A DNA stretch of 64,000 nucleotides, taken from positions 3,286,001-3,350,000 of the forward strand of contig NZ_CP019606.1 of the NCBI RefSeq assembly GCF_001997345.1. Direction: 5' to 3'. Shown piece after piece: positions 4,622-46,401 of the stretch. Position numbers and translations under genes: made by a program. The notes under the pieces were generated by a model. It was not told the origin of the DNA. It made no database searches and saw nothing but the letters and a program-made list of their open reading frames with translations. The stretch's first letter is position 1. Each line of letters begins with the position of its first letter. The stretch comes from Tessaracoccus aquimaris (GTDB taxonomy: Bacteria; Actinomycetota; Actinomycetes; Propionibacteriales; Propionibacteriaceae).

Positions 4622-5280
4622 CGCTGGTTGAGCCATGAGACGGCGCGGAGCGTCGTTTCATCGGTCGAAACCTCTGGCACCGGTGCTGGGTTTCGCTGGT
4701 TGAGCCAGCCGCGGCGACGCAGTCGCCTGCCGCTGCGTCGAAACCCCCTGGCGCCCGGTGCGGGGTCTGCTTGTCGGGTGCGGTGGGTTTCGACCGATGA
4801 AGTCCGCTGGCGCGTTCTTCATGGCTCAACCAGCGTGTCGTTGGTTGAGCCAGCCGCGGCGACGCAGTCCCTTGCTGCTGCGTCGAAACCCCCTGGCGCC
4901 CGGTGCGGGGATTTGCTGGTTGAGCCAGCCGCGGCGACGTAGTCGTCTGCTGCTGTGTCGAAACCCTCTGGCGCCCGGTGCGGGGTCTGCTTGTGGGTGC
5001 GGGTGGGGTTTCGACCGATGAAGTCCGCTGGCGCGTCCTTCAAGGCTCAACCAGCGTGTCGTTGGTTGAGCCAGCCGCGGCGACGTAGTCGTCTGCTGCT
5101 GTGTCGAAACCCCTGGCGCCCGGTGCCGGGTCTGCCTGTCGGTGTGCGGTGGGTTTCGACCGATGAAGTCCGCTGGCGCGTCCTTCATGGCTCAACCAGC
5201 GCGTCCCATGGAGTCCGCTGACGCGTCGGCTCAACCAACGCGACCGATGAAGTCCGCTGGCGCGTCCTTCAACCAGCGGG
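4622..5280. repeat. Repeat array R1: family A palindromic elements
   Basis: About nine elements of roughly 50 bp fill the gap between two convergent genes. Each runs from CGCTGGTTGAGCC to GTCGAAACC or the reverse. Two cores alternate: ATGAAGTCC...CTTCAT (both orientations) and AGCCGCGGCGAC...GCTGCGTCG. A spacer beginning CTGGCGCCCGGTGCGGGG separates several copies. The first element starts 2 nt after the TGA of the YegP-like gene. On the other side, the last CGCTGG starts 2 nt after the TGA of the YhgE gene. No credible gene lies here. Confidence 0.85.
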
Positions 5281-7428
5281 TCACAGCGGTGGGTGGAGGT
5301 CCTTGACGGTGAACCTGCGCTTGCGGTGGACCACGAGCACCAGCAGCGCCATGCAGGAGAAGAACAGCGTCGCCAGCAGTGCCAGGTCGCGGACGAACTT
5401 GCTCATCAGCCCGCCCGAGATCGCGATCCGGAACGCGTCGATCGAGTAACTCATCGGGACGAAGTGGCCGATCGCCGCGAAGAAAGGCGGCAGCAACTCC
5501 GGAGGATAGGTGCCCCCCGCGGCGGTCAACTGCAGGATCAGGAGCACCAGCATCGCGGCGGTCGCCACGAAGCCGAGCCAGGTTCTCATCAGGTGCGCGA
5601 CCGCGGAGAACGCGAGCGAGACCACCGTCACGAGCAGGATCATCAGCCACGGATGCACCGGGTCGAGGCCGAGGCCGATCCAGGCTGCGGCGAGCATCAA
5701 CCAGCCCGCGATCACCGAGATGAACCCGAGCGGCGCCCACGCCGTCAGGCCGATCCGCAGGTCGCTGCCCCGCGCAGCCAGCACCCGGCCCGTGATCGGC
5801 CGGACGATGAAGAACGCGGAGATGCCGAGCACCCACAGCGCGATCGAGAAGAACATCGGCGCGAGGCCGCGGCCGTAGACGTGCGCCGGGTTGTCGACGG
5901 TCATCGTCACGTCGACAGGGGCAGACAGCACGCTGACAGCGTCGGCCTCCTGGTCCTCGGTCAGGGCGGGGATCTGCGCGGCGCCGTCGGCCAGCTTGGT
6001 CGACAGTTCGTGGGCGCCGTCGGAGAGTTTCGCGAGCCCGTCGTCGAGCGAGACGGCCCCCTCAGAGAGCGTGTGCAGCCCTGTCGCGAGGGTTCCCGCG
6101 CCGTCGGAGAGTTGGTCGGCGCCCGACTTCAGGTCGCCGAGGCCCGACCTCAGCGACGTGGCGCCGCTGAGCGCCGTCGACGTGCCGCCCGCCAGGTCGG
6201 AGGCACCGGAGGCGACCTGCTGGGCGCCGCTGTTGAGCGCGTCGACCTTGGCCTTGGCGTCCTTGGCCTTGGTGGACAGGTCGCCGGTGTTGCGGATGGT
6301 GTCGTCGGCCTTCGCGACCGCGTCGGCGATGGTCGTCGCATGCTTTGCGACGTCGCCGGTGATGGAGGCGAGGTTGGTGGTGTGTGCCTGCAGCCGCTTG
6401 AACGCGGGGTCGTCGGCGAGTTCGGGGTGCTGCGCCACGAGGTCGTCGACGGCGTCGGAGATGGCTGCGCTGTTGCCCGCGGTCGTGCCGCTTCCCTGCG
6501 CGGTCAGGCTGGTCAGGTCGGCGGCGGCGTCCGCTGCCTTCGTGACGTCGGCCTGGACTCCCGGCAGCTTCTCGGCCGCGACCGTGAGCACGGGGTCAAG
6601 GGTGTCGGCCAACTGCTGGGTGCCTCCCGCGACCTGTCGTGAGCCGTCCTTGAGCTTCGACGCGCCGTCGTCGAGCTTGGTGAGCCCGTCGGCCAGTTGG
6701 CCCGCCCCGTCGGCGGCGGTGCCCGCGCCGGTGGCGAGTTTCGCGGCGCCGGTGTTCAGCTCGTCAGCGCCCGCGGCGGCGTCGGAGGCGCCCTGCCGGA
6801 GCTTGCCGCTGCCCTCGTGCGCGTCGGTGAGGCCGGTGTCGAGCTGAGCCGCGCCGTCCGCGGCGGAGACCATGCCCTCCCGGATCGTCTTGAGGTTGGC
6901 GAAGACCGCCTCGAAGTAGCTACTGACGGCGGTCTCGTCGATGGCCTTCGCGATCGAGTTCTGCGCCGAGTTGGTGATGGTGCCGATCACGAAGCCGTTT
7001 GCGTCGTTGCGGCGCAGCATGATCTTGGCGCGCGTCGGGTCGTCGCCCTGGCCGCTGACCAGGTTGGTGGAGAAGTCCTTCGGCACGGTGATGACGAGGT
7101 AGTAGCGGCCGTCCTTCAGGCCTGCGTCGGCGTCGGCGGCGTCGGTGTTCTGGAAGTCGAAGGTGCCGGTGCGGTGCAGGCTGTCGACGAAGTCCTGGCC
7201 CGCGTGCACGTCCTTGTCGTTGACCTTGGTTGGCACGTCCTCGTTGACGACGGCGACCGGCACCTGGTCGAGGCGACCGTAGGGATCCCAGTTGCCCGCC
7301 AGGTAGATGCAGCCGTACAGCAGCGGGATCAGCAGGATGAACACCAGCGCCAGCCGCGGCAGCGGCCCCTTGAAACGCTTGAGTTCGAAGCGGGCGAGGG
7401 TGAGTGGGTTGCGTGAGCTATCGGGCAT
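5281..7428 (-). CDS. YhgE/Pip family membrane protein (ABC exporter-like permease)
   Basis: A 715-residue membrane protein. One membrane segment near residues 25-45 is followed by the conserved stretch GNWDPYGRLDQVPVAVVNED, then a long extracytoplasmic region of about 450 residues with regularly spaced DGAxxLxxG and SGAxxLxxG units, likely a coiled or helical stalk. Five to six membrane segments form the C-terminal ABC-2-like part. YhgE/Pip proteins are thought to act as exporters or as surface and secretion-related proteins. The ATPase gene upstream overlaps its start by 11 nt, and a TetR regulator is divergent, which suggests a regulated efflux unit. The substrate is unknown. Confidence 0.9.
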   Translation of the reverse strand: MPDSSRNPLTLARFELKRFKGPLPRLALVFILLIPLLYGCIYLAGNWDPYGRLDQVPVAVVNEDVPTKVNDKDVHAGQDFVDSLHRTGTFDFQNTDAADADAGLKDGRYYLVITVPKDFSTNLVSGQGDDPTRAKIMLRRNDANGFVIGTITNSAQNSIAKAIDETAVSSYFEAVFANLKTIREGMVSAADGAAQLDTGLTDAHEGSGKLRQGASDAAAGADELNTGAAKLATGAGTAADGAGQLADGLTKLDDGASKLKDGSRQVAGGTQQLADTLDPVLTVAAEKLPGVQADVTKAADAAADLTSLTAQGSGTTAGNSAAISDAVDDLVAQHPELADDPAFKRLQAHTTNLASITGDVAKHATTIADAVAKADDTIRNTGDLSTKAKDAKAKVDALNSGAQQVASGASDLAGGTSTALSGATSLRSGLGDLKSGADQLSDGAGTLATGLHTLSEGAVSLDDGLAKLSDGAHELSTKLADGAAQIPALTEDQEADAVSVLSAPVDVTMTVDNPAHVYGRGLAPMFFSIALWVLGISAFFIVRPITGRVLAARGSDLRIGLTAWAPLGFISVIAGWLMLAAAWIGLGLDPVHPWLMILLVTVVSLAFSAVAHLMRTWLGFVATAAMLVLLILQLTAAGGTYPPELLPPFFAAIGHFVPMSYSIDAFRIAISGGLMSKFVRDLALLATLFFSCMALLVLVVHRKRRFTVKDLHPPL

Positions 7429-8122
7429 GCGGGGTATCCATCTCGATCGAGAGCACCGACAGGGGGATGGCGGTGCGTTCGGACGTGGAGGCGATGATGC
7501 TGACGCCCTCGTCGGAGAGCCTCAGCAGTCCCTCCCAGAGGTCGCCCTGTTCAAGGGTGGTGGTCTCACGGTCGATGTCGTCGAGCACGATCAGCGGCGC
7601 GGGCCGGATCGTGGCGAGCGAGATCGCGGCCCTCACCTGGTCGGCGGGGGACAGGTCTCCGTAGAGCGTCGTGAGGGGAACGTCGAGGCCGAGCAGGGTG
7701 GACGTGTGCAGGTAGTTGGCCATCCTTGAGCGGGCGGATGCTGCGTCCGCGAGCGTGCGCTCGGTGATGCAGTCCTCAAGGGAGAGCGAGTCCTCCGGTT
7801 CGACGAGGTCGTCAATCCGGGCGACCGACGTGATCTTGCGCACCCGGCCGGGGTGACGCAGCGCGTCGTTACCGTCGACGCTCAGTTCGCCAGTGACCCC
7901 GCGCATCCGACCCGTCAAGGCCAGCAGCAGGGCGGACTTGCCGACGCCCGCCTTCCCGGTGACGGCCACGACGGCGCCGCGTGGCACCTCGGTGGTGACT
8001 CCGTCGAAGACGACGCCATGGCCGGTCTCGAGGCGTAGGTTCTTGGCGACGAGCACCGGATCCGGCGTCTCGTCGTCCTGCAAGGCATGATGCGGCGTAT
8101 CCACAAAGAGGAGTCTACTCAT
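7418..8122 (-). CDS. ABC transporter ATP-binding protein, partner of the YhgE protein
   Basis: A 234-residue nucleotide-binding subunit. The Walker A motif is GKAGVGKSAL and Walker B is LIVLDDID. The signature loop is degenerate (DLSPADQ in place of LSGGQ), as in several YhgE-linked ATPases. The start is set at the ATG at 8122 (MSRLLFVDTP), which lies inside the TetR palindrome; the longer upstream frame would run through the divergent promoter and regulator. Its last codons overlap the start of the YhgE gene, so the pair is translationally coupled. Confidence 0.85.
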   Translation of the reverse strand: MSRLLFVDTPHHALQDDETPDPVLVAKNLRLETGHGVVFDGVTTEVPRGAVVAVTGKAGVGKSALLLALTGRMRGVTGELSVDGNDALRHPGRVRKITSVARIDDLVEPEDSLSLEDCITERTLADAASARSRMANYLHTSTLLGLDVPLTTLYGDLSPADQVRAAISLATIRPAPLIVLDDIDRETTTLEQGDLWEGLLRLSDEGVSIIASTSERTAIPLSVLSIEMDTPHAR

Positions 8123-8136
8123 AAATGAGTGCACTC
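8111..8136. promoter_or_regulatory. 26-bp palindromic operator between tetR and the exporter genes
   Basis: Left arm GAGTCTACTCAT (8111-8122), two-base centre, right arm ATGAGTGCACTC (8125-8136): 10 of 12 arm positions are complementary. It covers the start codon of the ATPase gene and the -35 region of the regulator gene, a typical place for a TetR operator that shuts off both directions. Confidence 0.75.
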
Positions 8137-8144
8137 TGAAATGG

Positions 8145-8152
8145 GCTATAGT
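8145..8152. promoter_or_regulatory. Back-to-back -10 elements of tetR and the exporter operon
   Basis: On the plus strand TATAGT (8147-8152) ends 6 nt before the tetR ATG, a leaderless arrangement. On the minus strand TATAGC reads from 8150 to 8145 and would start the exporter mRNA near 8138, so that the palindrome forms its first bases. Confidence 0.5.
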
Positions 8153-8158
8153 GCTGCC

Positions 8159-8761
8159 ATGACCACGGTTCCCATCCTCGGCCGACGCGACCGCAACAAG
8201 GCGGCCAAGCGCGCCGCCATCTCGCGAGCCGCGACGGAGCTGTTCACGCAACAGGGTTACGCCGCCACCACGACGCAGCAGGTCGCCCGGGCGGCCGACA
8301 TCGCGGAGGGCACGCTCTTCCGTTACGCCGGCAGCAAGCCCGAGTTGCTCCTGATGGTCATCAACGAGCACCTGCGCCCCCTTGTCGACGGCGTCGCGGA
8401 CCCCTCAGGCGCCGCCGTCGAGGACGAGATCCTGCACCTGCTGAGCCCGATCATCGATCTCGCGGAGAGCCAGCCTGAGAACGCGGCCCCCTTCCTGCGC
8501 GAGGTCCTCTTCGGCGAGGACGGCCCGCAGCGTCGGGAGGCGCTGGGGTTGGTCGACCAGGTCGTCAGCCGGATCGCGGCGCTGCTGCGCCCCTACGAGG
8601 ACCGCCTCGAGGGGATGGAACCGGCGGAGGCGGCCAGGTGGGTGTTCTCCGCGCTCGTCAGCGAGTTGCTGCAGGACGTCGTCGGCAGGGGCACCCCCGA
8701 CAGGCAGGCCGCGTTACGCGCCCGTGTCCGCGTCCTGCTCCGTGGGCTCGGCGCCGCCTGA
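8159..8761 (+). CDS. TetR/AcrR family transcriptional regulator
   Basis: A 200-residue repressor. The N-terminal helix-turn-helix is clear: AAISRAATELFTQQGYAATT, then TQQVARAADIAEGTLFRYAG and SKPELLLMVI. The rest is the variable ligand-binding domain. The ATG at 8159 is preferred because the -10 element lies just upstream and the HTH begins about 20 residues in, as is usual. It is divergent from the exporter pair and very likely represses it and itself through the palindrome at 8111-8136. Its 3' end overlaps the convergent Imm-5-like gene by 48 nt. Confidence 0.9.
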   Translation: MTTVPILGRRDRNKAAKRAAISRAATELFTQQGYAATTTQQVARAADIAEGTLFRYAGSKPELLLMVINEHLRPLVDGVADPSGAAVEDEILHLLSPIIDLAESQPENAAPFLREVLFGEDGPQRREALGLVDQVVSRIAALLRPYEDRLEGMEPAEAARWVFSALVSELLQDVVGRGTPDRQAALRARVRVLLRGLGAA

Positions 8762-9289
8762 GCCGCGCAACTGCGCATCCAGGCGCCTGACGACGGCCCC
8801 CACGCGCCCTCCCTTCGGCGGCGCGGGCGGCAGTCGACGCAGCACCTCGCGCACCACGTCGTCGGCGAGCGAGTCGACCCAGTCAATGCCGTCCTGGGCG
8901 TCGAGATCGTCCAGTTCGAGCGCGCACACCGCGTGCCCGCCCGCGCCGAGGATGTGCTTGACCTGATGCTCCTCGGCGAACGGGTGCAGGAACGCCGACG
9001 CCCCGGCCGACGACGCGGAGAAGGCCGCGTGACCGGCCCGCGCGTGATCCTCCGCGGTCGCCTCGCGGCCCGCCCGCCAGGCGTCCATCGCGACGCGCCG
9101 CAGGCCCGTCTCACGCGGGCCGCCGTCGGCGAACCGGTGCCCGGCGAGGATCGCCAGGGCTGGCCTCGGGTCGTCGGGGAATGCCTCAGCGAACAGCGGC
9201 AGGACGCGCTCGGCGCAGCGCAACGCGAAGTCGCTCACCGCCCGGATCTCGGCAAGGCTGAGCTCGATCGGTGGATGCTTGGTCCCCAT
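8714..9289 (-). CDS. Imm-5-like putative immunity protein
   Basis: A 191-residue, alanine-rich helical protein. The pattern IELSLAEIRAVSDFALRCAE, PDDPRPALAILAGHRFADGG and AGHAAFSASSAGASAFLHPF, followed by HQVKHILGAGGHAV, matches what databases call the Imm-5-like domain, often mislabelled as an SbcC-type exonuclease. Members are inferred to be immunity proteins of polymorphic toxin systems, but no toxin gene is adjacent here. The ATG at 9289 was chosen because the conserved region begins a few residues later. Confidence 0.65.
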   Translation of the reverse strand: MGTKHPPIELSLAEIRAVSDFALRCAERVLPLFAEAFPDDPRPALAILAGHRFADGGPRETGLRRVAMDAWRAGREATAEDHARAGHAAFSASSAGASAFLHPFAEEHQVKHILGAGGHAVCALELDDLDAQDGIDWVDSLADDVVREVLRRLPPAPPKGGRVGAVVRRLDAQLRGSGGAEPTEQDADTGA

Positions 9290-9352
9290 GCGCCCACCAT
9301 GCCATGCGGCGATTCGACGCGCGTAAGCGGTGCGCGCAACGCCTGTGGCGTT

Positions 9353-9358
9353 TAGGTT
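9353..9358 (+). promoter_or_regulatory. -10 element TAGGTT, leaderless spacing to ligD
   Basis: TAGGTT ends 7 nt before the ATG at 9366, and no ribosome site is visible. Confidence 0.45.
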
Positions 9359-9365
9359 TGACCCC

Positions 9366-11528
9366 ATGGCGGATGTGATCCTCGAGGTGCCCGGCCCTGA
9401 GCCGAGGTCGGTCAAGCTCAGCAGCCCTGACAAGGTGCTCTGGCCGATCGACGGCGACCCCGTCACCAAACGTGACCTCGCCGACTACCTGCTGGCGGTC
9501 GCCGAGCCGTTCCTGTTCCTCAACGGCGACCGGCCCATGACGCTGCAGCGCTTCCCCGACGGCGTCGAGGGCGAGGAGTTCTTCTCCAAGCGTCCGCCGC
9601 CCGGCGCGCCCAGCTACCTCAAGGCGGTGATGTGCACCTATCCGTCGCGGCGCCGTCACGAGCAACTCGTCTTCGACGAGCCGGCCGAACTGGCCTGGGC
9701 GGCGCAGATGGGCACCATCACGTTCCACCCGTGGCCGGTGCGCACCTCCAACTTGGACAACCCCGACGAGTTCCGCATCGACCTCGACCCGCAGCCCGGC
9801 CGCGACTTCGGCGACGCCGTCACCGCCGCCCTCGAACTGCGCACGGTGATGGCCGAGAGCGGGTTGACGGCCTACGCCAAGACCTCCGGCAACCGCGGCG
9901 TCCATGTGTACGCCCGGATCGCGCCGACGCACGAGTTCCAAGACGTCCGACACGGCGTCATCGCGATCGCGCGGGAACTTGAGCGGCGGATGCCGGAACT
10001 CGTCACCACGTCGTGGTGGAAGGAGGAGCGCGGCGAGAAGGTCTTCGTCGACTTCAACCAGGCCAACCGGGATCGCACCATCGCGGGCGCCTACTCGCCC
10101 CGGCCGCTGGCGTGGGCGCCGGTGTCGACCCCGCTGAGCTGGGACGAACTGGTCGACGCCGACCCGCGCGACCTCACCGTCCGCACCGTGCCCGCCCTGC
10201 TGAAGCGCCGCGGCTGCCCCTGGTCGGACATCGACGAGCACGTCGGCGACGTCTCCGGGGCCCTTGCGATGTGGCAGGCCGACCTCGACAACGGGCTAGG
10301 CGAACTCAACTTTCCCCCGGACTATCCCAAGATGCCGGGCGAGCCGCCCCGCGTCCCGCCGAGCAAGCGCAAGACAGACCGCGCCGACGAGGACTACATG
10401 GCGCCGAAGGCCGAGCGGGACGCCGAGTGGGGCACCGCCGTCGTGCCGCCGTTCGGGCCGATGCTCGCTAAGCCAGTCAAGAAGCTTCCCAAGGGGGAGT
10501 ACCTGTTCGAGCCGAAGTGGGACGGCTTCCGGTCGCTGATCTGGCGCTCGGGGGACATGGTCGAGATCGGGTCGCGCAACTCGCGTCCCATGACCCGCTA
10601 CTTCCCGGAACTGGTCGAGGCGATCATCGCGAACTTCCCCGACCACAGCGTCATCGACGGCGAGATCATCATGATCGACCCCGAGTCGGGGGACCGGCTC
10701 AACTTCGACGCCCTGCAGCAGCGGATCCATCCGGCGGCGTCGCGGATCAAGAAGCTCAGCGCCTCGATGCCCGCCAGTTTCGTGGCGTTCGACCTGCTCG
10801 CGCTCGGCACCGACAACTATGCGGAGCGGCCGTTCCGGGAGCGTCGGGAGGCGCTCGAGAAGGCGCTCGCGAACGCCGAGCCGCCCATCTTCCTGACGCA
10901 GGGCACCTACGACGAGGCACTCGCGATGGAGTGGTTCGAGCAGTTCGAGGGGGCTGGGCTCGACGGGGTGATCGCCAAGCCGCTGGACGAGCCGTACGCC
11001 GAGGACAAGCGGGTGATGTACAAGCTCAAGCACGAGCGCACGGCGGACTGCGTGGTGGCCGGGTACCGGCTGTACAAGGACGAGTCGGACGCGATCGGGT
11101 CGCTGCTGCTGGGGCTCTACACGGCTGACGGCGTGCTGAACTCGGTCGGCGTGATCGGGGCCTTCCCGATGGCGCGCCGGAAGGAACTGTTCGAGGAGTT
11201 GCAGCCGCTGGTGACCGGCTTCGATGGCCATCCGTGGGCTTGGGCGAAGCCGGAGGAGTCGCTGCCGGACAACCGGGACCAGTCGATCCCGCGGACCCCG
11301 ACGTCGGCGGCGCACTCGCGGTGGAACGCGAAGAAGGACCTGTCGTTCACGCCGCTGCGGCCCGAGCGGGTCGTCGAGGTGCGCTACGAGCACATGGAGG
11401 GCGACCGGTTCCGACACACGGCCCAGTTCCTGCGCTGGCGCGAGGATCGCGACCCGGAGTCGTGCACGTACGAGCAGTTGGAGGAGCCGGTCAGCTACGA
11501 CCTGTCGAAGGTCCTCGGCGCTGGTTGA
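9366..11528 (+). CDS. ligD: ATP-dependent DNA ligase LigD with polymerase and ligase domains
   Basis: A 720-residue non-homologous end-joining enzyme. The N-terminal LigD polymerase/primase domain (about 1-290) has the metal-binding pair D139 and D141 in FRIDLDPQPGRDFGD and the block KTSGNRGVHVYARI. The C-terminal ATP-dependent ligase domain (about 365-700) has the adenylated lysine K384 in FEPKWDGFR, IDGEI, and the later motif DGVIAKPLD. The phosphoesterase domain found between or before these in mycobacterial LigD is absent. No ku gene is nearby. The ATG at 9366 follows a leaderless-type -10. The stop codon TGA falls inside the first repeat element of the next array. Confidence 0.93.
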   Translation: MADVILEVPGPEPRSVKLSSPDKVLWPIDGDPVTKRDLADYLLAVAEPFLFLNGDRPMTLQRFPDGVEGEEFFSKRPPPGAPSYLKAVMCTYPSRRRHEQLVFDEPAELAWAAQMGTITFHPWPVRTSNLDNPDEFRIDLDPQPGRDFGDAVTAALELRTVMAESGLTAYAKTSGNRGVHVYARIAPTHEFQDVRHGVIAIARELERRMPELVTTSWWKEERGEKVFVDFNQANRDRTIAGAYSPRPLAWAPVSTPLSWDELVDADPRDLTVRTVPALLKRRGCPWSDIDEHVGDVSGALAMWQADLDNGLGELNFPPDYPKMPGEPPRVPPSKRKTDRADEDYMAPKAERDAEWGTAVVPPFGPMLAKPVKKLPKGEYLFEPKWDGFRSLIWRSGDMVEIGSRNSRPMTRYFPELVEAIIANFPDHSVIDGEIIMIDPESGDRLNFDALQQRIHPAASRIKKLSASMPASFVAFDLLALGTDNYAERPFRERREALEKALANAEPPIFLTQGTYDEALAMEWFEQFEGAGLDGVIAKPLDEPYAEDKRVMYKLKHERTADCVVAGYRLYKDESDAIGSLLLGLYTADGVLNSVGVIGAFPMARRKELFEELQPLVTGFDGHPWAWAKPEESLPDNRDQSIPRTPTSAAHSRWNAKKDLSFTPLRPERVVEVRYEHMEGDRFRHTAQFLRWREDRDPESCTYEQLEEPVSYDLSKVLGAG

Positions 11529-12257
11529 GCCAGCCGTTGGTTGAGCCAGCCCGCCGACGAAGTCGCGCGGTGCGTCGAAACCTGCTGGACCCTTCGCGCA
11601 GACTGGCACTTCGTTGGCTGAGCTAGTCGAAGCCTCCGGTCGCCGAGCGCGACCTGCCTGTGGTTGCGGACCCTTCGACACGGGCGCGGGGCGCCCTGCT
11701 CAGGGAACGGCTGCCGAGTCAGTCCGACGAGCGACCTAAGATCGCGCGGAGGCTAGAACCAGTTGCCTTGAACGTCACGAGGGCTTCGACCGATGCGGTC
11801 CGCTGGCCCGTCCCGCATGGCTCACCCAGCGGTGGTCGCGCGGTGCGATGCGCTGGTTGAGCCAGCCCGCCGACGAAGTCGCGCGGTGCGTCGAAACCTA
11901 CTGGACCCTTCGCGCTGACTGGCACTTCGTTGGCTGAGCTTGTCGAAGCCTCCGATCGCCGAGCGCGACCTGCCTGTGGTTGCGGACCTATCGACACGGG
12001 CGCGGGGCGCCCTGCTCAGGGAACGGCTGCCGAGTCAGTCCGACGAGCGACCAAAGATCGCGGAGGCTAGAACCAGTTGCCTTGAACGTCACGAGGGCTT
12101 CGAACGATGCGCGCTGGTTGAGCCAGCCCGCCGACGTAGTCGCGCGGTGCGTCGAAACCCTCGCGACAGGCGCGGGGACTTGACCCAGCAGTTGCAGAAC
12201 GTCACGAAGGCTTCGACCGATGCGGGCCGCTGGCGCGTCCGCATGGCTCACCCAGCG
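11519..12257. repeat. Repeat array R2: mixed family A and family B elements
   Basis: The gap between convergent ligD and the TM2 gene. Family A copies have the core CCCGCCGACGAAGTCGCGCG and end in GTCGAAACC; others have the variant ends GGCTTCGACC and GGCTCACCCAGCG. Family B copies contain TTCGACACGGGCGCGGGGCG followed by CCCTGCTCAGGGAACGG, and TTGGCTGAGCTTGTCGAAGC. A block of about 330 bp (near 11,640-11,870) is largely repeated near 11,950-12,110. The ligD stop lies within the first element, and the TM2 stop is 2 nt from the last. Confidence 0.85.
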
Positions 12258-12259
12258 GG

Positions 12260-12664
12260 TCAGCGCAGCGGGCGACCCTCCGCGTCGGGCTGCTTGCGGG
12301 TCGCGATCAGGATGACGTCGATCAGCCACCAGATGCCGAAGCCGCCGCCGGTGATCAGTTTCAGGATGCCGAGGCCCGTCTGGCCCAGGTAGAAACGATC
12401 GATGCCGAAGCAGCCGAGCAGGATGCTGAGGACCAGCGCGACGGACCAGTCGCGGCTCGAGTACAGCCCCGGCAGTTGGGCAGCGGGGAAGTAGTTGCCG
12501 CCAGCGGCGTCGCGGATCATGCTGTCGGGGCGAAGGGTGCCCGTCACCGCCATGTGGGCGAGCCCCTGAACCGGGTAAGGGCCGTGCTCTTGGCCGTATC
12601 CTCCGGCGACGTAGAACATCGAGGGAACCGGAACCGATGCATACCCGTACATGCCATAGCTCAT
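12260..12664 (-). CDS. GYF_2 (DUF4339) and TM2 domain protein
   Basis: A 134-residue membrane protein. Residues about 15-65 resemble the GYF_2/DUF4339 domain (GQEHGPYPVQGLAHMAVTG and IRDAAGGNYFPAAQLPG). The C-terminal half is a TM2 domain: two membrane helices (WSVALVLSILLGCFGIDRFY and FGIWWLIDVILIA) joined by LGQTGLGILKLITGG. TM2 proteins are widespread and mostly uncharacterised. The ATG at 12664 has TAGTCT 6 nt upstream. Confidence 0.82.
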   Translation of the reverse strand: MSYGMYGYASVPVPSMFYVAGGYGQEHGPYPVQGLAHMAVTGTLRPDSMIRDAAGGNYFPAAQLPGLYSSRDWSVALVLSILLGCFGIDRFYLGQTGLGILKLITGGGFGIWWLIDVILIATRKQPDAEGRPLR

Positions 12665-12670
12665 GTGCCA

Positions 12671-12676
12671 AGACTA
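12671..12676 (-). promoter_or_regulatory. -10 element TAGTCT, leaderless spacing to TM2 gene
   Basis: On the minus strand TAGTCT lies 6 nt before the ATG at 12664. Confidence 0.5.
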
Positions 12677-12736
12677 GGGGGCGGGCCGAGGCGTGCGCGT
12701 CCCACCCTGGGCAGATCTTCCCCTGAGAGCACGGCC

Positions 12737-12742
12737 TAGAGT
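12737..12742 (+). promoter_or_regulatory. -10 element TAGAGT, leaderless spacing to PaiB-like gene
   Basis: TAGAGT lies 6 nt before the GTG at 12749, which supports this start over internal ones. Confidence 0.5.
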
Positions 12743-12748
12743 TGGACC

Positions 12749-13474
12749 GTGACCAAGGACATCGCCAGCTACGTGTACTGCCCAGCGAGCCAGCGCGTCG
12801 ACGAGGCCCAGTCGCGCGACCTGCTCGAGGCGTGCGGGGCCGCACTCTGGATCACGAGCGGAGACGGCGCACCCTCGGCGACCCTGTTGCCGACGATGTG
12901 GCGCGGTGACCTGCTGATCGCCCACGCGTCCGACCACAACGAACAGTTCGCCATCATCGAGGGCGAGGTGCCGTGCCGCGTGCTCGTGCAGGGTTCCGAC
13001 GCCTACATCAGCCCCCGGTGGTACCAGAGCGTTCAGCCGGCCTCCGAGGGCGGCGCGGCGCGCGGTCGCGCGGAGGGCCGCGGCGTGGGGACGTGGAACT
13101 ACAAGCAGGTGCAGATCGCAGGCGTGTTGACCGTGCACAGGGACCGGGAACGGCTTCGCCGCGAGGTGAGCGAGTTGGGTGCGCTGCACGACGAACTCCG
13201 GTTCGGGGAGGGCTGCCCAGCCGACGCGCATCGGGGGCCGTGGACGGCGTCCGAACTGCCCGGTGACTATTTCGACGCGATGCTGCGCGGGATCGTCGGC
13301 CTGGAGTTGCGGATCACGGACGTGGTCGGCCGGTTCAAGCTGTCCCAGAACCGCACCGAGGTCGACAGGGAGGGCGCGATCACGGGCTTGGGGGAACGCG
13401 GTCGCCCGCGGGACCTGGCGGTCGCCGAGGCGATGCGGACGGCGACGCCGCTGTACGACCCGACGACCGACTGA
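12749..13474 (+). CDS. PaiB-like FMN-binding protein
   Basis: A 241-residue protein of the PaiB family, named after a Bacillus protein involved in repressing sporulation and protease genes. The fold is a split-barrel FMN-binding domain. The segment LWITSGDGAPSATLLPTMWR, the HASDHNEQFA stretch and TWNYKQVQIAG are typical. The C-terminus has the family block GIVGLELRITDVVGRFKLSQ and NRTEVDREG. A DNA-binding role is not evident from the sequence, and a flavin-dependent redox role is equally possible. It stands alone and converges with murJ across repeat array R3. Confidence 0.85.
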   Translation: MTKDIASYVYCPASQRVDEAQSRDLLEACGAALWITSGDGAPSATLLPTMWRGDLLIAHASDHNEQFAIIEGEVPCRVLVQGSDAYISPRWYQSVQPASEGGAARGRAEGRGVGTWNYKQVQIAGVLTVHRDRERLRREVSELGALHDELRFGEGCPADAHRGPWTASELPGDYFDAMLRGIVGLELRITDVVGRFKLSQNRTEVDREGAITGLGERGRPRDLAVAEAMRTATPLYDPTTD

Positions 13475-13499
13475 CGCCGATCGACGCACGCGCGACGCC

Positions 13500-14070
13500 C
13501 GCTGGGTGAGCCATGCGGGGCGCGTCAGCGGCCCGCATCGGTCGAAGCCCCGTGAGGATTCCGCGATCCTGGGCCAGTCATGCGCGCATGGGCCAGTGGG
13601 TTTCGACGCACCGCGCGACGTCGTCGGCGGGCTGGCTCAACCACCGCGACACGGCCCGCGACTTCGTCGGCCGGTGGCTCAACCAGCGCGACACTCCGCT
13701 CGGCCTCGTCGGGCTGGCCCAAGAACCGTTCCCTGAGCAGGGCGCCCGGCGCCCGTGTCGAAGGGTCCGAAACCACCAGATCGCCAGGCCATTCGGAGGC
13801 TTCGACAAGTTCAGCCAACGGTGCGACGGTCTGCGCGTAGCCGTCAGGCGCGGGTGCCTGGGACTGGGGGGCGACGCACCGCGCGACCACCGCTGGGTGA
13901 GCCATGCGGGGCGCGTCAGCGGCCTGCATCGGTCGAAGCCTCGTGAGCTTCATCGGCTACTTGGCCAGGTCTCCGCACCCGTCACGAGGGTTTCGACGCA
14001 CCGCGCGACTTCGTCGGCGGGCTGGCTCAACCAGCGTTTGGCGGGCTGGTTCAACCAGCGTTCAACCGGC
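13500..14070. repeat. Repeat array R3: mixed family A and B elements
   Basis: The gap between the convergent PaiB-like gene and murJ. Several family A copies with the CCGACGAAGTCGCGCGGTGC core appear in reverse (GGTTTCGACGCACCGCGCGA to GGCTCAACCAGCG). Two variant copies start CGCTGGGTGAGCCATGCGGG. A family B copy begins near 13,730 (TTCCCTGAGCAGGGCGCCCG). The last element starts 2 nt from the murJ stop codon. No supported gene. Confidence 0.85.
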
Positions 14071-14072
14071 GC

Positions 14073-17000
14073 TCAGGAGACCTTGATCTCGTTGATCTCG
14101 CCGATGTAGCGGTCGCCGACCTTCGGGAGCTTCGTCAAGTACACCATCACGTACCGAGTCTCCACAGGCTTGTCGAGCTTCATCGTCACGGTGCCCTTCG
14201 CCGCGGCGTCTGCGGCGACGATCGACCAGTCGGCCTCCGTCCGCATCGACGGCTCCTCGCCCTTCGGCACGCGCAGTTCGACGCTCGTCGCGCCGCCCGT
14301 CATCAGCAGTTCGACGCTGCTCACCTTGCGCACCTCGCCAAGGTCGAGGATGAGGCCGACGCCGGGCTTCAGCCCGCCCAGGTTCGGCCGGTTCTTGTAC
14401 GACATCGTCTTCCACGACGTCTTCGGATCGCCGTCGAACACGTTCTTTGTGAGTTCGGGGAACTCCTCGCTATTGCCGCCGTCCGTGTCGGGATCGAAGT
14501 CCTTCGCGCCGACGATCGTGATCGCCGCCGGAGCAGACGGGCTCTGCTCCGCCGTCACGCTCGGGCTGCCAGTCGGGGAGGGCCCCGCCGCGTTGTCCTT
14601 GGCGCTGTTGACCCCCACGATGATCAGCGAGACCACCAGTGCGACCACGGCGAGCGCGATCAGCAGCCACAGGACCCGGCGCGACCGGCCGGTCGGCTCC
14701 TCGTGCACGAGCGGATCGGGCGACTGTTGACGCACCGGCGAGCCCTTCGCGGGGGCCGCGAGGCTGAGCTGACCCGAATGCTCGTCCACCGACGTCGGCG
14801 GAACGGGCGCGTCGCGCAGCGAGTCCCACGCCCTGACGCGCTGCTCAAGGTCGGCCGACGCGTCCGCGGTGCCGAGCACCTGGTTGAGGGCCGTCACCAA
14901 CTGGGCCGCGGTCGTGATGCGGCGCTCCGACATCGCGCCGCGCTGCGTCAACGTCGTCGAGCAGACGCGGTCCAGCGCGGGCGAGATGCCCGCTTGGACG
15001 CTGTGTGGAGCGGCGGTCTCGCCCGCCACGATGGGCGCCGCGGGCAGGCCGAAGTCGCTGCCGCCCGGCCAATGCCGCACCAGCGTGGCGTACAGCAGGT
15101 TGCCGAGGCCGACGACGTCCGAACGTTCCCGCACGGCCCAGGCGTTGCTCTCCAGAGCGTCGCCCGCGAGCGTCGCCTCCGTGCCGAAGCCGACCAGTCG
15201 GACGGCACCGGAGGAGGTGATGATCACGTTGTCTGGGTTCAACTGCTCGTGGAAGAGCCCCTGGCCGTGCACCGCGACCAGCGCGTCGGCGAGTTCGCGA
15301 ACGATGAAGGCGGCCTCGATGGCGCTCAGCGGGCCCTTGGCGAGCAGTTCGGTCAGCGAGCGGCCATTGGCGTACTCGGCCACCACGTAGGCGCCTATGC
15401 CCTGCGTCGGGTCGGTCACCTCGTCTGCGTCCAGGACGCGCAGGAAGCGCGAGTCGGTGGCGACCGCACCCTTGCGGGCGGCCGTCATCAACTCGGAGAT
15501 CCGCTCGTCGCCAGGGGCGATCACGTGGACGATGACGTCGCGCGACAGCACCTGGTCGTGAGCCCGCCACGACTCGGTGCCGTGGCGCTGCGCCAGCAGT
15601 TCGATCAGCTCGTAGCGGGTGTTCAGCAGCGTGCCGACCGTCGCGATGTGGCTGGGGTGCACCCGGCGCGGGCTGCTCGACTCGCGGAAGACCTCTGAGA
15701 TCTCGATGGGGCCGGTCGGCAGGTCCGCGAAGTTCTCAGCGGTCGACTCCTCGTCGAGCCCGTCGGTCGACTCCTCCTGGTCGTCGTCGAGCGACGGGGC
15801 GGGGGCGCTCGAGCCTGGGCGTCGGAAGATCGCGTCGTGCACGTCCGCGACGTCTGGGTCGACGGCGGCCATCGGCTGGGTCGCGGGGGCCTCGGGCGCC
15901 GCAGGGGCTGTGACGGCGGGAGGCGTGCCGAAGGTGTGCCTGCTGATCGGTGGGCGGTTCCGCACGATCGTGACGGGGCCGATGTCGTCGAAGTCGTCGT
16001 CGGCCATCGAGGGGGAGTCGTCGACGAAGGCGGGCAGCATGATGGTGGCCTGGTCGTCGGTGATGTCAGGCCCGGTCACCGATGCCGCCGACGCCTTGCC
16101 CTTACCGAAGCGGCTGCGCACCAGTTCGCCGAGGTTGCCGAGTTCGCGGACCTTGAGCAGCTTCCCGACGATCAGGTAGGAGCCGAGGATCAGCAGGCCG
16201 CCGACCACGCACGCCACGATGTCTCCGACCAGCCGGACGCCGATCAGGTCCGTGACCCAGCCCGACACGAAGTAGGCCGCCACGCCGCCGACGGCCGAGC
16301 CGATCAGCAGCCGGATCAGGTGCAGCAGGATCTTGCCGCCGCCGAGGCCGGGCAGCCGGCGCGCGAGCAACTGCCAGGACACGAGCACGCCCACGAGGTA
16401 GGCCAGCGAGTAGGCCAGCCCGAGCGCAGGCGCGACCCAATCCGTCGAGGTGGTCAGCGCGACCAGCCCGATCGCGGCGAGCATGTTCACACCCGCGATG
16501 AGGATCTGCAGGAAGAACGGCGTGCGGGTGTCCTCCAGCGCGTAGTAGGTGCGCAGGCACACGAACTGGATCGTGAAGGGGATCAGGCCTACCGCGAACG
16601 CCATCAGCGTCCACGCGATCAGGATCGCGTCGCTGCCCCTCGGGCCGATCCCGAACAGGATCGCCGAGATCGGGCCGGCGAGCGCCAGGAAGGTGACGGC
16701 GGCCGGGACGATGACGATCAGCGCGAGGCGGGTCGTCTTGGTGAACTCGGCGACCACACCGGCCTTGTCGCCGGAGGAGGCGAGCCTCGACGCGTTGGGA
16801 AGCATCGCGGTGGCGAGCGAGACCGTGATCAGCGAGTGCGGCAGGATCCACAGCAGGTGCGCGTTGTTGTAGACGTTCAGGCCGGCGCCGTGACCCGTTA
16901 AGGCGGTCGCGGAGGTTGCGAGTCGCTGCACCACGATCAGCGTCAACTGGTTGACGCCGACGAAGCCGAGCGTCCACCCGGCCAGCTTGAACGTCTTGCC

Positions 17001-33467: not shown

Positions 33468-33710
33468 ATGTGGTCCACGCGCGAACGACGATTTTTCGCG
33501 CCGCAACGACGAGCCGAACCCGGCTCCGTGCGGCCGTCGTCGAGCGCATCCTGCGCCGCTGACGGCGACGCCCACGACCCCGTGAAGGTGGTCGTTGCGG
33601 GCGTCGACGCGGCACGCGCCAAGGGGCGCCACATCATCGAGACAGGCTCACCCGGGCACGCGGAGCGCGCAGCGGGCAGAGAGACCAAGGGCGAGGACAT
33701 TCATGGCTAA
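33468..33710 (+). CDS. Possible 80-residue leader protein overlapping the PBP start
   Basis: An open frame begins at an ATG with correct leaderless spacing from TACCCT and ends with a TAA that overlaps the PBP ATG by 8 nt. The product is very basic (WSTRERRFFAPQRR at the start) and matches no family known to me. The overlap would suit translational coupling, since the PBP start has only a modest ribosome site (GCGAGGA). It could equally be chance within the 5' untranslated region. The rest of the gap (33294-33455) holds nothing recognisable. Confidence 0.3.
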   Translation: MWSTRERRFFAPQRRAEPGSVRPSSSASCAADGDAHDPVKVVVAGVDAARAKGRHIIETGSPGHAERAAGRETKGEDIHG

Positions 33711-36036: not shown

Positions 36037-36940
36037 GGACGTCTCGACAGGCTCGACGAACGGATCTGAAGCCGGACTCGTGGTGGGTTGCGGACGTCTC
36101 GACAAGCTCGACGAACGGACCGTGTCCGTTCCCTGAGCAGGGCGCCTGCGCCCGTGTCGAAGGGTCCGGGTTGCTTGTCGGACGGCTCGCTGGACGCGAT
36201 CGGACGCCTCGACAGGCTCGGCGAACGGTTCTGGAGCCGACGGTGGTGGGTTTCGGACGTCTCGACAAGCTCGACGAGCGGACCGTGTCCGTTCCCTGAG
36301 CAGGGCGCCTGCGCCCGTGTCGAAGGGTCCGGGGTGCGTGGCTTGTCGGTCGGCTTGGTGGACGCGACGGACGTCTCGATAGGCTCGGCGAACGGTTCTG
36401 GAGCCGACGGTGGTGGGTTTCGGACGTCTCGACAAGCTCGACGAGCGGACCGTGTCCGTTCCCTGAGCAGGGCGCCTGCGCCCGTGTCGAAGGGTCCGGG
36501 GTGCGTTGCGTGTCGGTCGGCTCGGTGGACGCGATGGACGTCTCGACAGGCTCGGCGAACGGTTCTGGAGCCGGACTCGTTGTGGGTTTCGGACGTCTCG
36601 ACAAGCTCGACGAACGGACCGTGTCCGTTCCCTGAGCAGGGCGCCTGCGCCCGTGTCGAAGGGTCCGGGGTGCGTTGCTTGTCGGTCGGCTGGGTGGACG
36701 CGATGGACGTCTCGACAGGCTCGGCGAACGGATGTGCAGCCGGACGGTGGTGGGTTGCGGACGTCTCGACAAGCTCGCCGAGCGGACCCTGGCCGGACGG
36801 GCTCCGCCCACGCGATCGGACGTCTCGACAAGCTCGACGAACGGGCCGAGAGTCAGGCTGAATGCCCGGAGCGGTTCCCTTGAGGCTCGGTCGTGTCCGT
36901 TCCCTGAGCAGGGCGCCTGCGCCCGTGTCGAAGGGTCCGA
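36037..36940. repeat. Repeat array R4: family B units with ~167-bp period
   Basis: The gap of about 1.1 kb between the PBP and glycosyltransferase genes, both on the plus strand. GGACGTCTCGACAAGCTCGA recurs about ten times, with AGGCTC variants. CCCTGAGCAGGGCGCCTGCG followed by CCCGTGTCGAAGGGTCC recurs five times, starting near 36132, 36294, 36461, 36630 and 36902; the first four are 162-169 bp apart. No family A element is present. The open frames crossing it are a by-product of the repeats. Confidence 0.85.
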
Positions 36941-39990: not shown

Positions 39991-40250
39991 GCGCTGGTCG
40001 AGCCATGAAGGTCGCGGAGCGGACTTCATCGGTCGAAACCCCTGTGGTTCCGCTGGTTGAGCCATGAAGGTCGCGGAGCGGCCTTCATCGGTCGAAACCT
40101 CGTGAGATGGCGCACGGACTCAGCCTCGGGCTCGGTTCCTGAGCGCCGCGGTGCAGGCCATGCGGTTGAGCGAGGGTTGGTTTCGACGCGCTGCGCCGCT
40201 TCGCGGCTTTGCCCGGCTCAACCAGCGGCAGTCGCGGCTCAACCGGCGGT
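39991..40250. repeat. Repeat array R5: family A elements
   Basis: The gap between convergent DinB copy 2 and the racemase-like gene. Two direct copies with the ATGAAGG...CTTCAT core (starting 39991 and 40050) and one reversed copy with the GAAGCGGCG-type core (about 40180-40228). The first begins 1 nt after the DinB stop. Confidence 0.85.
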
Positions 40251-42425: not shown

Positions 42426-42564
42426 CCGGGCGGACCCGATCCGGGGTCATTCCGCAGGGCGGGTCGACGGCGGTGGCGCGCGGGGGAGTCGGGCCCGATG
42501 AGCAGGCCCGTGCCGTCGCCGCGTCCTGATGACGGGGACGGGCGGGAGCGTGGCCGGGGACGCG

Positions 42565-42646: not shown

Positions 42647-42692
42647 GCCAGAGCCCAGCCACCGCCGAGTCGGCCGGAGGGGGCGGCGATGC

Positions 42693-42698
42693 GAGAAT
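42693..42698 (+). promoter_or_regulatory. Weak -10 element GAGAAT with leaderless spacing
   Basis: GAGAAT lies 6 nt before the ATG at 42705. The spacing fits but the first base does not. Confidence 0.3.
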
Positions 42699-42704
42699 GG
42701 CCGC

Positions 42705-43994: not shown

Positions 43995-43997
43995 GGT
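43992..43997 (+). promoter_or_regulatory. -10 element TAAGGT, leaderless spacing to FKBP gene, overlapping a stop codon
   Basis: TAAGGT lies 6 nt before the ATG at 44004. Its first three bases are the stop codon of the GT87 gene. Confidence 0.55.
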
Positions 43998-44003
43998 CGT
44001 CCC

Positions 44004-44384
44004 ATGACCAATATGAACGAGAAGCCCGAGGTTGATTTCCCCGAGGGCGAGGCGCCCGCCGAGCTCGTCATCGACGACATCGTCGTCGGCGACGGCCAGG
44101 AGGCCAAGGCCGGGGATGTCGCCCACGTGCACTACGTCGGTGTTGCCTTCAGTTCCGGCGAGGAGTTCGACTCCTCCTGGAACCGTGGCGCCGCGCTGTC
44201 CTTCCCGCTCGGTGGCGGCCGCGTCATCCAGGGCTGGGACCAGGGCATCCAGGGCATGAAGGTCGGCGGACGCCGCAAGCTGACGATCCCTCCGCACCTC
44301 GCTTATGGCGACCGCGGCGCTCCTGGCGCGATCGCGGGCGGCGAGACGCTGATCTTCGTCTGCGACCTGGTCGGGCTCAACTGA
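44004..44384 (+). CDS. FKBP-type peptidyl-prolyl isomerase
   Basis: A 126-residue cytoplasmic FKBP that speeds prolyl isomerisation in folding proteins. The domain fills residues about 20-125: VHYVGVAFSSGEEFDSSW, VIQGWDQGIQGMKVGGRRKL and IPPHLAYGDRGAPGAIAGGE, with an ETLIFVCDLVGL end. No signal peptide. Commonly one such single-domain FKBP is present in actinobacteria. A strong hairpin follows the stop. Confidence 0.93.
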   Translation: MTNMNEKPEVDFPEGEAPAELVIDDIVVGDGQEAKAGDVAHVHYVGVAFSSGEEFDSSWNRGAALSFPLGGGRVIQGWDQGIQGMKVGGRRKLTIPPHLAYGDRGAPGAIAGGETLIFVCDLVGLN

Positions 44385-44401
44385 CCCACCGACAACCACT
44401 C

Positions 44402-44434
44402 CGAGGGGCCGCGCCATTAAGGCGCGGCCCCTCG
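44402..44434 (+). terminator. Hairpin terminator after FKBP gene
   Basis: A perfect stem, GAGGGGCCGCGCC (44403-44415) and GGCGCGGCCCCTC (44421-44433), extended by one C-G pair, encloses the loop ATTAA. The tail has few Ts, as is common in actinobacteria. Confidence 0.8.
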
Positions 44435-44497
44435 TCCGTTCTGCCGGCGCCCGACACTCGCCAACCTGTGATTAACCTGAGAGATGTCCTCAGAATG

Positions 44498-44593
44498 TGA
44501 GCGCGGATCGCGCTCAAGGTGCGTCGTTCAGGCGTGGTTTCCTGTGAGTTGGCCCTCCCTGGAGTTTGAAAAGTGTCTGAGAAAGTCTCAGAC
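44498..44593 (+). promoter_or_regulatory. Structured leader upstream of the M23 peptidase gene
   Basis: Two exact inverted repeats lie in the 190-nt gap: TGAGCGCG-GAT-CGCGCTCA (44498-44516) and GTCTGAG-AAAGT-CTCAGAC (44575-44593), the second ending 20 nt before the ribosome site. Cell-wall hydrolase genes in actinobacteria often have riboswitch leaders, but I could not match this one to the c-di-AMP (ydaO) consensus. Confidence 0.35.
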
Positions 44594-44623
44594 TGGCGGG
44601 GCATCCAACACCAAGGAGACACA

Positions 44624-45852
44624 GTGAACACCAACTCCATCCAGCCGCGAAGGGCGCTCGACTACACACCGCCGAGCGAGCCCGGGACCTGGTGGCGCAA
44701 GGCAACTGTGAGCCTGGCCGCGGCGACGATCGGCTTGGCAGGGCTCGGGGTAAGCACCGCGTCCGCCGACGACAGCGCCCCCGTGACTGCATCACATTCG
44801 ACCTCCGCCGACCGCGGCTCCGACTCCGGCGAGGGCTCCCAGAAGTCCTCGAGCGACAAGGGTTCGGGCGACACCGGCTCCGCCGACAACGGCAAGGGCG
44901 ACTCGACCTCTGGGTCCGACAACTCCGGGGAACCGACTCCGGCGGCGGGTCCGGCCAAGAGTCGAACGGCGGCGACGCGAGCGACGGCACCTCCGCAGGC
45001 TCCGATTCGACGGGCTCCGATTCGACGGGCTCCGATTCGACCGGCTCGGACGAGCAGGCAGGCGACGGCGGTTCGGGCGACTCCGACTCGAACCCCTCGA
45101 ACACCCCGTCCGAGGACCCGACTCCCGCTCCGTCCGCGGCTCCGACGCCCGCCCCCTCGCAGACCCCGACGGCCAAGCCGACCGAGCAGGCCAAGCCCGA
45201 GGCGGTCAAGCCGTCCAAGACTTCGACCAGCTCGAAGTCCTCGAAGGACGACGACGAGTCGACCTCCCGCAAGAGCACGACCAGGCATCACTCCTCGTCG
45301 CGGCACGACTCCTCGTCCTCGAGCGAGCGGAGCGGTAGCGGAGATCGCGACTACTCGACCTCCTCGACGTCGGCCTCCTCGTCGTCCTCGTCGACGGCGA
45401 CCGTCGCGGCAACCACGAGCAACCTCGCCGTCGACGGCGCGTCCCTGCCGCTGGCCAAGGGCACCTACCGCCTGAGCGCCCAGTTCGGTGCGACCGGATC
45501 CTGGTCGCGCTACCACACGGGCATGGACTTCTCTGCCCCGACGGGCACCCCCGTCTTCGCGGTCGTTGACGGCACGGTCGTCGAGTCGAGCGCCGGGGGC
45601 TGGGCGGGCACGCACGTCATCATCGAGGCGGCCGACGGCTCCCACACGCTCTACGCGCACCTGAGCGCCAAGACGGTGACCCCCGGCACCAAGGTGACCG
45701 CAGGCCAGCAGATCGGGAAGGTCGGCGAGACCGGCCGCGCCTTCGGCGCCCACCTGCACTTCGAGTACTACACGCCCGGCACCCGCCCCGGCGACGTGTA
45801 CTCGGCCTCCAACCCGGCCGCCTTCCTCAAGGAACTCGGCCTCACCCTCTGA
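44624..45852 (+). CDS. Secreted M23 family peptidoglycan peptidase, frameshifted
   Basis: About 409 residues once repaired. A long signal peptide (hydrophobic VSLAAATIGLAGLGVSTASA) precedes a low-complexity Ser/Asp/Gly/Thr linker of about 200 residues, then a LytM-type M23 domain (about 285-405): zinc motif SRYHTGMDFSAPTGTPVFAV and HLHFEYY. It would cut peptide stems in peptidoglycan. The frame breaks at 44927-44930, where one more G links SDNSG to GTDSGGGSGQESNGG. The GTG at 44624 follows AAGGAG (44613-44618) by 5 nt. The break is probably a sequence error. Confidence 0.87.
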
Positions 45853-45877
45853 GCGACCAACGCTCGTTCCCGGTACC

Positions 45878-45914
45878 GACGCCCCGCGGCTTCCCCCCCT
45901 GGCCGCGGGGCGTC
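45878..45914 (+). terminator. Hairpin terminator after the M23 gene
   Basis: A perfect 13-bp stem, GACGCCCCGCGGC (45878-45890) and GCCGCGGGGCGTC (45902-45914), around a C-rich 11-nt loop, 26 nt after the stop codon. Confidence 0.7.
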
Positions 45915-45939
45915 GCCGCGCCGTGTGGGGGTGCGGATG

Positions 45940-46401
45940 TCACGGGGTTTCGACCGATGAAGTCCGCGCTGCGCGTCCTTCATGGCTCAACCAGCGATCC
46001 GCCGGTTGAGCCGGGCAAAGCCGCGAAGCGGCGCAGCGCGCGTCGAAACCAGCCGCGCTCGACGGCATGGTCCGCACCGGTGCTCGCGCCGAGCCCGGGC
46101 CGTGAGGAAGGTCCCTGCGGGGCGTCGCGGGGTTTCGACCGATGAAGTCCGCTGCGCGCCCTTCATGGCTCAACCAGCGATCCGCCGGTTGAGCCGGGCA
46201 AAGCCGCGAAGCGGCGCAGCGCGCGTCGAAACCAACCCGCGAATGGCCGCATGGCCTGCACCGTGGCGCTCCCGAGCGTGTGGAGGAGTCGCGGCGGATG
46301 TCGCGGGGTTTCGACCGATGAAGTCCGCTGCGCGTCCTTCATGGCTCAACCAGCGAAGACCGATGACGTCCGCTGCGCGCACTCATGGCTCAACCAGCTC
46401 A
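45940..46401. repeat. Repeat array R6: family A elements
   Basis: The gap between the convergent M23 gene and hppA. Reversed copies with the ATGAAGTCC...CTTCAT core (about 45944, 46131, 46307) alternate with direct copies having GGGCAAAGCCGCGAAGCGGC (about 46002 and 46186). A truncated copy ends near 46401. Confidence 0.85.

Follow-up and report, generated by a model that had tools for sequence, protein, structure and literature searches.

Hairpin repeats of probable REP/BIME type fill the wide convergent gene junctions in a stretch of the Tessaracoccus aquimaris chromosome

Within a 64,000-nucleotide stretch of the Tessaracoccus aquimaris chromosome (positions 3,286,001-3,350,000 of the 3,934,699-bp genome, which is a single contig; referred to as the window herein), every wide gap between converging genes is packed with short palindromic repeats, the family A elements, which we consider likely to be mobile hairpins of the repetitive extragenic palindrome (REP) and bacterial interspersed mosaic element (BIME) type. 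Genes were called with a codon-usage caller made for this analysis, and Pfam matches were added for selected genes. An earlier sequence-only reading of the window had counted twelve convergent pairs, and our independent calls returned the same number, of which seven have gaps no wider than 28 bp and the others gaps of 267, 598, 616, 661 and 731 bp. That reading had also placed the repeats in all five wide gaps, and 25 of the 25 window elements found with at most one mismatch per 9-base arm indeed lie there. With up to two mismatches allowed, CGCTGGTTGAGCC matched 34 times in the window against 3.7 expected, and GGTTTCGAC matched 22 times against 0.5 expected; Rfam returned nothing at gathering score within the window. 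The arrays, and the two hairpins that flank the last of them, are as follows.

4622..5276: R1 array between the YegP-like (DUF1508) and YhgE-like genes, with eight called elements (starts 4626+, 4698+, 4786-, 4843+, 4918+, 5007-, 5064+, 5152-) plus degenerate copies
11519..12257: R2 array in the ligD-TM2 gap, with five called elements and sister elements with CCCT and GGCT stems; the ligD TGA lies in the first arm
13500..14072: R5 array in the gap between FMN_bind_2 (FMN-binding) and murJ, with four called elements and one CCCT-stem sister element; the R2 core types in opposite order
39992..40248: R3 array between the mycothiol-S-transferase (MST, DinB-like) and Ala_racemase_N (AlaR) genes, with two elements (+) and one of a different core type (-)
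45946..46399: R6 array between the M23 peptidase and H+-pyrophosphatase (PPase) genes, with five called elements, two core types and orientations alternating
45877..45915: on the M23 side, a terminator-like hairpin; the relative G020 likewise bears a hairpin at this place but no array
46418..46455: on the PPase side, a terminator-like hairpin; G020 likewise bears a hairpin at this place

The elements often start at the very end of a gene. Stop-to-element distances are 2 nt for the YegP-like and TM2 genes and 1 nt for MST (the gene previously designated DinB 2), and the ligD stop falls within an element arm, which bears out the spacing described before; the copies that adjoin the YhgE and murJ ends proved to be degenerate. 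The statement that no such repeats were seen elsewhere holds for family A within the window, but sister elements, which share the inner motif and differ in the outer stem, fill two wide tandem gaps.

Across the 3.93-Mb genome we found 146 strict family A copies and none with a reversed control. Eighty stretches of this genome were read, namely an even 20% sample (39 x 20 kb), 40 stretches chosen for holding elements, and the window; loci beyond 3.26 Mb enter only through the window and the sample stretches. The resulting table of 60 element-bearing junctions with 235 elements is a biased sample, half of its stretches being element-chosen, whereas figures from the even sample are unbiased. It omits six candidates with no called neighbour on one side (four of them form one cluster, L101) and any element lying deeper than 40 nt within a called gene.

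The units, mostly ~47-53 nt long, are imperfect one-sided hairpins with an unpaired 5′ foot of the form CGYT. Among the 235 elements the foot bases 5′ of the stem are C (0.87), G (0.99), C or T (0.77/0.23) and T (0.89), and on the 3′ side of the stem no base exceeds 0.62, so the tag is on one side only. The commonest feet are CGCT (139), CGTT (39) and TGCT (20), and GTAG is not among the feet listed. The arms pair in a fixed order: an outer stem, 3-4 pairs long and different between subfamilies, a G.A and an A.G mismatch, a G-C pair and the inner stem. The inner stems vary by lineage, with 25 classes in this genome by crude clustering.

The outer stems covary while the two G.A mismatches are nearly invariant. 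Among 312 TGAGC..GTCGAA pairs the outer triplet was complementary in 236, where 108 were expected, and once GGT was excluded in 59 of 132, where 9.9 were expected; the pairing triplets were GGT/ACC (177), GAT/ATC (23), CCC/GGG (15), CGT/ACG (13), CCT/AGG (4), GAC/GTC (3) and GCT/AGC (1), and the commonest non-pairing one was GGG/GCC (14). The pair adjoining the mismatches, counted in 503 matches, was T.A in 282, C.G in 145, G.C in 7 and A.T in none; the reversed control gave 9 matches in all, which puts G.C and A.T at control level. When the mismatch positions were left free and only the foot, a four-base complementary stem and GC..GTC were required, GA/GA accounted for 322 of 365 matches and Watson-Crick dinucleotides for 3; here the reversed control gave 30 matches in all, and GA/GA was absent from its five commonest. 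On both strands the mismatches sit in the context Py-GA-Pu (5′-YGAG/5′-CGAR), which is the preference of sheared tandem G.A pairs.

Units occur as singlets, as inverted pairs and as arrays in which two core types alternate. For instance, R6 reads - ATGA, + GGGC, - ATGA, + GGGC, - ATGA. Arrays of alternating orientation were seen at many of the 60 junctions, a single junction holding as many as 9 copies; the window shows tandem periods of 145, 167 and 220 bp. The foot points outward at 80 of 120 array ends (p = 3e-4). This holds for 61 of 86 ends facing a stop codon and 19 of 34 facing a start codon, shares that are not distinguishable (p = 0.14), and their similarity suggests that facing a stop codon may be largely a property of the arrays. 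Closeness to stop codons is not: an element comes within 12 nt of the codon at 21 of the 86 stop-facing ends, compared with none of the 34 start-facing ones (p = 0.0008). Among 31 listed gene ends that an element faces with its foot from no more than 40 nt away, there are 10 at which the element itself supplies the stop codon, usually as GGT-TGA-GCC; nine of these ten depend on crude gene calls, the other being ligD. Judged from the two C-termini, the ligD product of G020 ends two residues later.

The sequence-only reading had proposed a genome-wide tally of flanking gene orientation, and this tally shows an enrichment rather than a rule. Convergent junctions make up 34 of the 60 element-bearing junctions, compared with 44 of the 247 even-sample gaps longer than 100 bp (p = 1.7e-11), yet 18 tandem and 8 divergent junctions are occupied as well. 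Three of the divergent junctions have Pfam matches on both flanks (FMN_red/Bac_luciferase, ArsR/DUF4956 and GAF/LacI). In the unbiased 39 x 20 kb, family A occupies 7 of the 44 convergent gaps longer than 100 bp, 4 of the 82 divergent ones and 4 of the 121 tandem ones (convergent versus rest, p = 0.0075); with sister families included the counts become 10 of 44, 4 of 82 and 8 of 122 (p = 0.0015). The family A counts omit one weak match inside a called gene. Above 250 bp, 6 of 20 convergent gaps and 11 of 86 others hold an element of any of these families (p = 0.087), and family A alone is found in 3 of the 20 convergent gaps; since the gene caller is crude, some of the wide gaps may conceal genes. 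The occupation of every wide convergent gap is thus specific to the window. By gene calls, all 25 elements of the window and 55 of the 56 in the sample are intergenic, some reaching into gene 3′ ends. GC skew of the sample stretches, computed to set element orientation against replication, showed no clean origin or terminus.

We compared the same junctions in relatives. Family A elements number 0 in the syntenic stretches of G020 (whose PPase is 93% identical to that of T. aquimaris), G008, G016, G033 and G011, and none was found in the PPase 3′ flank of 29 relatives, two of which offer less than 130 bp of flank. The gaps between the same gene pairs are shorter in relatives: PPase/M23 spans 117 bp in G020 and 14 bp in G033 versus 616 bp here, AlaR/MST 161 bp in G020 versus 267 bp, murJ/FMN-binding 18 bp in G016 versus 598 bp, and TM2/ligD -133 bp in G016 (a doubtful value obtained through a stop extension) versus 731 bp. 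Relatives with gaps of -457, -4 and 29 bp have a different AlaR neighbour and were excluded from the same-pair comparison; large negative values in relatives probably come from broken frames. After YhgE, whose neighbour in relatives is different, the gaps are 346, 100, -29 and 69 bp. At PPase/M23, G020 carries two strong terminator-like hairpins back to back and no array, and T. aquimaris has one such hairpin per gene end with the array in between. Because five same-pair junctions in relatives are shorter and free of family A, the arrays were probably gained on the T. aquimaris branch, which is the simplest reading by parsimony.

The wider superfamily pattern is distributed patchily over the genus, from 8 matches (in a 60%-complete genome) to 352 per genome with a control of 5 to 31, and about nine genomes with more than 130 matches stand far above the control. 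These high-copy genomes carry differing cores, which suggests separate expansions. An identical 42-bp element was found at loci L074, L075 and L079 of G016, G003 and G026, each with one family A copy, and at one site in G011, and may be an old conserved copy. A scan of other actinobacteria yielded 96 loci among the matches listed, some of them of this genus; they were retrieved with GGTT arms, hence only non-GGTT stems are independent. The GGTT-type feet at these loci were CGCT (61), CGGT (51), CGCC (21) and CGTT (14) of 216 among the matches listed. Beyond the phylum, 23 of 142 alphaproteobacterial genomes contain core-less mini forms (CCTGAGCN1-4GTCGAAGG) at up to 38 copies, with 2 control matches in all.

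A REP-associated tyrosine transposase (RAYT), which the sequence-only reading had suggested looking for, was found neither in this genome nor in 38 other genomes of the genus. The Y1_Tnp domain (PF01797) gave 0 matches in the 39 genus genomes, a few of which are incomplete, and 0 in eight element-bearing actinobacteria outside the genus; it matched in 2 of 60 relatives, both order-level kin only, and in three of eight alphaproteobacteria with mini forms. As a positive control, it matched in E. coli and four others of 14 genomes. We also considered a transposase gene within the long element-bearing gaps of loci L039 and L043, where 0 of 6 open reading frames (ORFs) matched and a single sub-threshold match appeared. 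In L039 (14400-17700), three GATT-stem elements lie in 3.3 kb with no confident gene and no Pfam domain in the tested ORFs.

Set against known repeats, the elements behave much like REPs. According to PMC3733652, PMC2817692 and PMC6006769, the GTAG REPs and BIMEs of E. coli and Pseudomonas are imperfect hairpins with an unpaired tetranucleotide at one foot, present in more than 100 copies, mostly extragenic, arranged in arrays of alternating orientation and mostly downstream of genes. The T. aquimaris elements share all of this, being short imperfect palindromes of high copy number, extragenic and tagged on one side, in regularly spaced units of alternating orientation. They differ in the CGYT foot (also CGGT in other genera), the nearly invariant G.A pair, cores that change with lineage, and the lack of any Y1_Tnp found in the genus; neither the GTAG (GT[AG]G) tag nor the RAYT gene was found. 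The CGTC REPs, as described in PMC3733652, have a CGTC, TGTC or CCTC foot, stems of 8-9 bp beginning with A-T pairs, mostly a CCA-like tail and no dedicated transposase. The same paper finds REPs chiefly between convergent or unidirectional genes and downstream of coding regions, and describes heterodimers as common. Short tagged hairpins in convergent and unidirectional gaps, with no dedicated transposase, are what those REPs and ours share; their foot, A-T stem start and CCA-like tail were not seen here. REPINs, as described in PMC3116915, likewise form inverted doublets and tandem clusters; here array ends are mostly foot-outward, two core types often share a junction, singlets and long arrays are common, and no RAYT was found. 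Literature searches with element strings, with Tessaracoccus and palindromic repeats, and with RAYT and actinobacteria did not find the family, matches being partly judged by title among those listed, and the word actinobacteria is absent from the main text of PMC3733652. Since the tag tests failed, the elements are best filed as working like REPs and BIMEs and outside the GTAG/RAYT and CGTC families. Their placement is known REP behaviour; they are set apart by their foot, G.A pair and host group and by the missing RAYT.

Several observations count against mobile hairpins of this type or blur the evidence for them. Neither a transposition event nor a mobiliser came to light. The covariation tables count kindred copies repeatedly. 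In the other actinobacteria the closing-pair rule is less clean: 73 non-GGTT matches have T.A or C.G in 33 cases and other pairs in 40 (C.C 11, C.A 9), with a control of 17. Inner-stem folding goes only modestly beyond chance, with a mean z of -1.03 when the core was shuffled and the arms kept fixed, 6 of 25 classes below -2, and z from -3.33 to +0.22 for nine typical units. Among the relatives, G004 carries four family A elements within a 60-kb region of little synteny that yielded 4 of 16 window genes. The comparison of gaps is further complicated by an inversion of TM2/FMN-binding, which in G020 gives murJ/TM2 46 bp and FMN-binding/ligD 245 bp; in the inverted order the latter gap is -47 bp in G008 and 809 bp in G033, so the swapped junctions are not all tight. 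Lastly, G020 has its own sister-family elements, with different outer stems, at the YhgE and MST ends. These ends were struck more than once, and the position may be selected, not merely tolerated.

This last point touches the proposal that selection maintains the elements as bidirectional terminators or RNA 3′-end protectors of convergent genes, with spread secondary, which we regard as improbable. Convergent enrichment and the closeness to stop codons on stop sides only would agree with it, as would the G020 sister elements. So would strong terminator-like hairpins in relatives at murJ/TM2 (G020) and after YhgE (G008 and G033, with a different neighbour), at sites where the arrays here begin a few nt past the stop. 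Intrinsic terminators also share a G+C-rich hairpin just past the stop codon, but a hairpin followed by a T tract is not what the elements show, and termination needs neither a conserved foot nor a conserved mismatch. T-tract sites are no commoner in the array regions than in shuffles (0 versus 3.6 in 4500-14200; one weak site with a 5-bp stem versus 0.5 in 45800-46500), which led us to reject such terminators there. A hairpin persists at each gene end beside R6, copies reach 9 per junction, 8 of 60 junctions are divergent, the foot points outward at start sides too, 104 of 114 convergent junctions in the even sample have no superfamily element, and the same gene pairs in relatives manage without arrays. 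Together these weaken termination as the primary role; termination as a by-product is possible.

Positive supercoils build up at convergent junctions, and it could be imagined, as the least probable of the readings weighed here, that the arrays are chromosome-organising sites for gyrase or a nucleoid protein, favoured at such junctions for that reason. The convergent enrichment fits, and REPs bind IHF, Pol I and gyrase according to PMC6006769, but the distribution in the genus is very patchy and divergent gaps are occupied. A different question is what moved the elements. An orphan RAYT, that is, a Y1 transposase that spread them and was later lost from the whole genus, seems unlikely, though less so than the two roles above. 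The REP/BIME anatomy, the Y1_Tnp matches in order-level kin, and the CGTC REPs, for which PMC3733652 also gives no dedicated transposase, would suit it. Against it stand the zero of 39 in the genus, where differing cores suggest separate expansions, and the lack of PF01797 in the eight element-bearing actinobacteria outside it, set beside its presence in three of eight mini-form alphaproteobacteria. Tentatively, and with somewhat better prospects, the elements could instead belong to a cross-phylum superfamily of DNA hairpins that fold as single strands, present in actinobacteria and, as mini forms, in alphaproteobacteria, defined by a CGNT foot, a sheared tandem G.A/A.G mismatch and a freely covarying stem, and moved by an undescribed enzyme other than Y1/RAYT; such elements would colonise gene 3′ ends and donate stops and 3′ hairpins.

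Of the three options that the sequence-only reading had put forward, the REP-type element is the best supported, with the qualifications that no RAYT was found and that convergent 3′ ends are enriched, not strictly targeted. As REP/BIME-type mobile hairpins, the elements would have been gained on the T. aquimaris branch and spread by a putative enzyme that reads the foot and the mismatched stem, and amplification in place would have built the arrays. Selection would clear them from promoters and coding regions, leaving them to persist mostly at converging genes. Since convergent gaps are often tiny, we propose that elements there would come to adjoin stop codons and at times provide the stop.

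Other features of the window bear on these arrays or lie near them. The divergent TM2/FMN-binding pair (12260-13474) is inverted relative to G020 and G008 and not relative to G016. It lies between R2 and R5, whose shared core types in opposite order could recombine; both orders are found among relatives without regional family A, so the inversion need not stem from the arrays. The two tandem gaps with sister elements are:

36037..36940 (+): sister array with a tandem unit of ~167 bp, in which CGTT-CCCTGAGC...GTCGAAGGG hairpins (+) take turns with CGTCGAGC..GTCGAGACG hairpins (-)
57954..58290: mini elements, CCCTGAGCTTGTCGAAGGG and C-G-closed relatives

The first gap measures 1076 bp and holds CCCT-stem hairpins on the + strand and CGTC-stem hairpins on the - strand; in G020 the tblastn matches of its flanking genes lie only ~160 bp apart. 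Nearby, the gene at 33703-35985 contains about 15 copies of a 12-base coding repeat, CCGACGAAGGAA, close to its 3′ end (35737-35918). The mini hairpins of the second gap have no core and resemble the mini form of the 23 alphaproteobacterial genomes.

Discussion of REPs usually centres on proteobacteria and RAYT transposases, and here a REP-like superfamily with a clean structural signature thrives in a genus in which no RAYT was found and has relatives in other actinobacterial genera. The T. aquimaris window offers a worked case, with the same gene pairs joined by shorter, array-free gaps in relatives and with ten gene ends in the genome whose stop codons are supplied by an element. Taken together with the natural contrast between copy-rich and copy-poor genomes of one genus, this makes the mover of transposase-less REPs testable.

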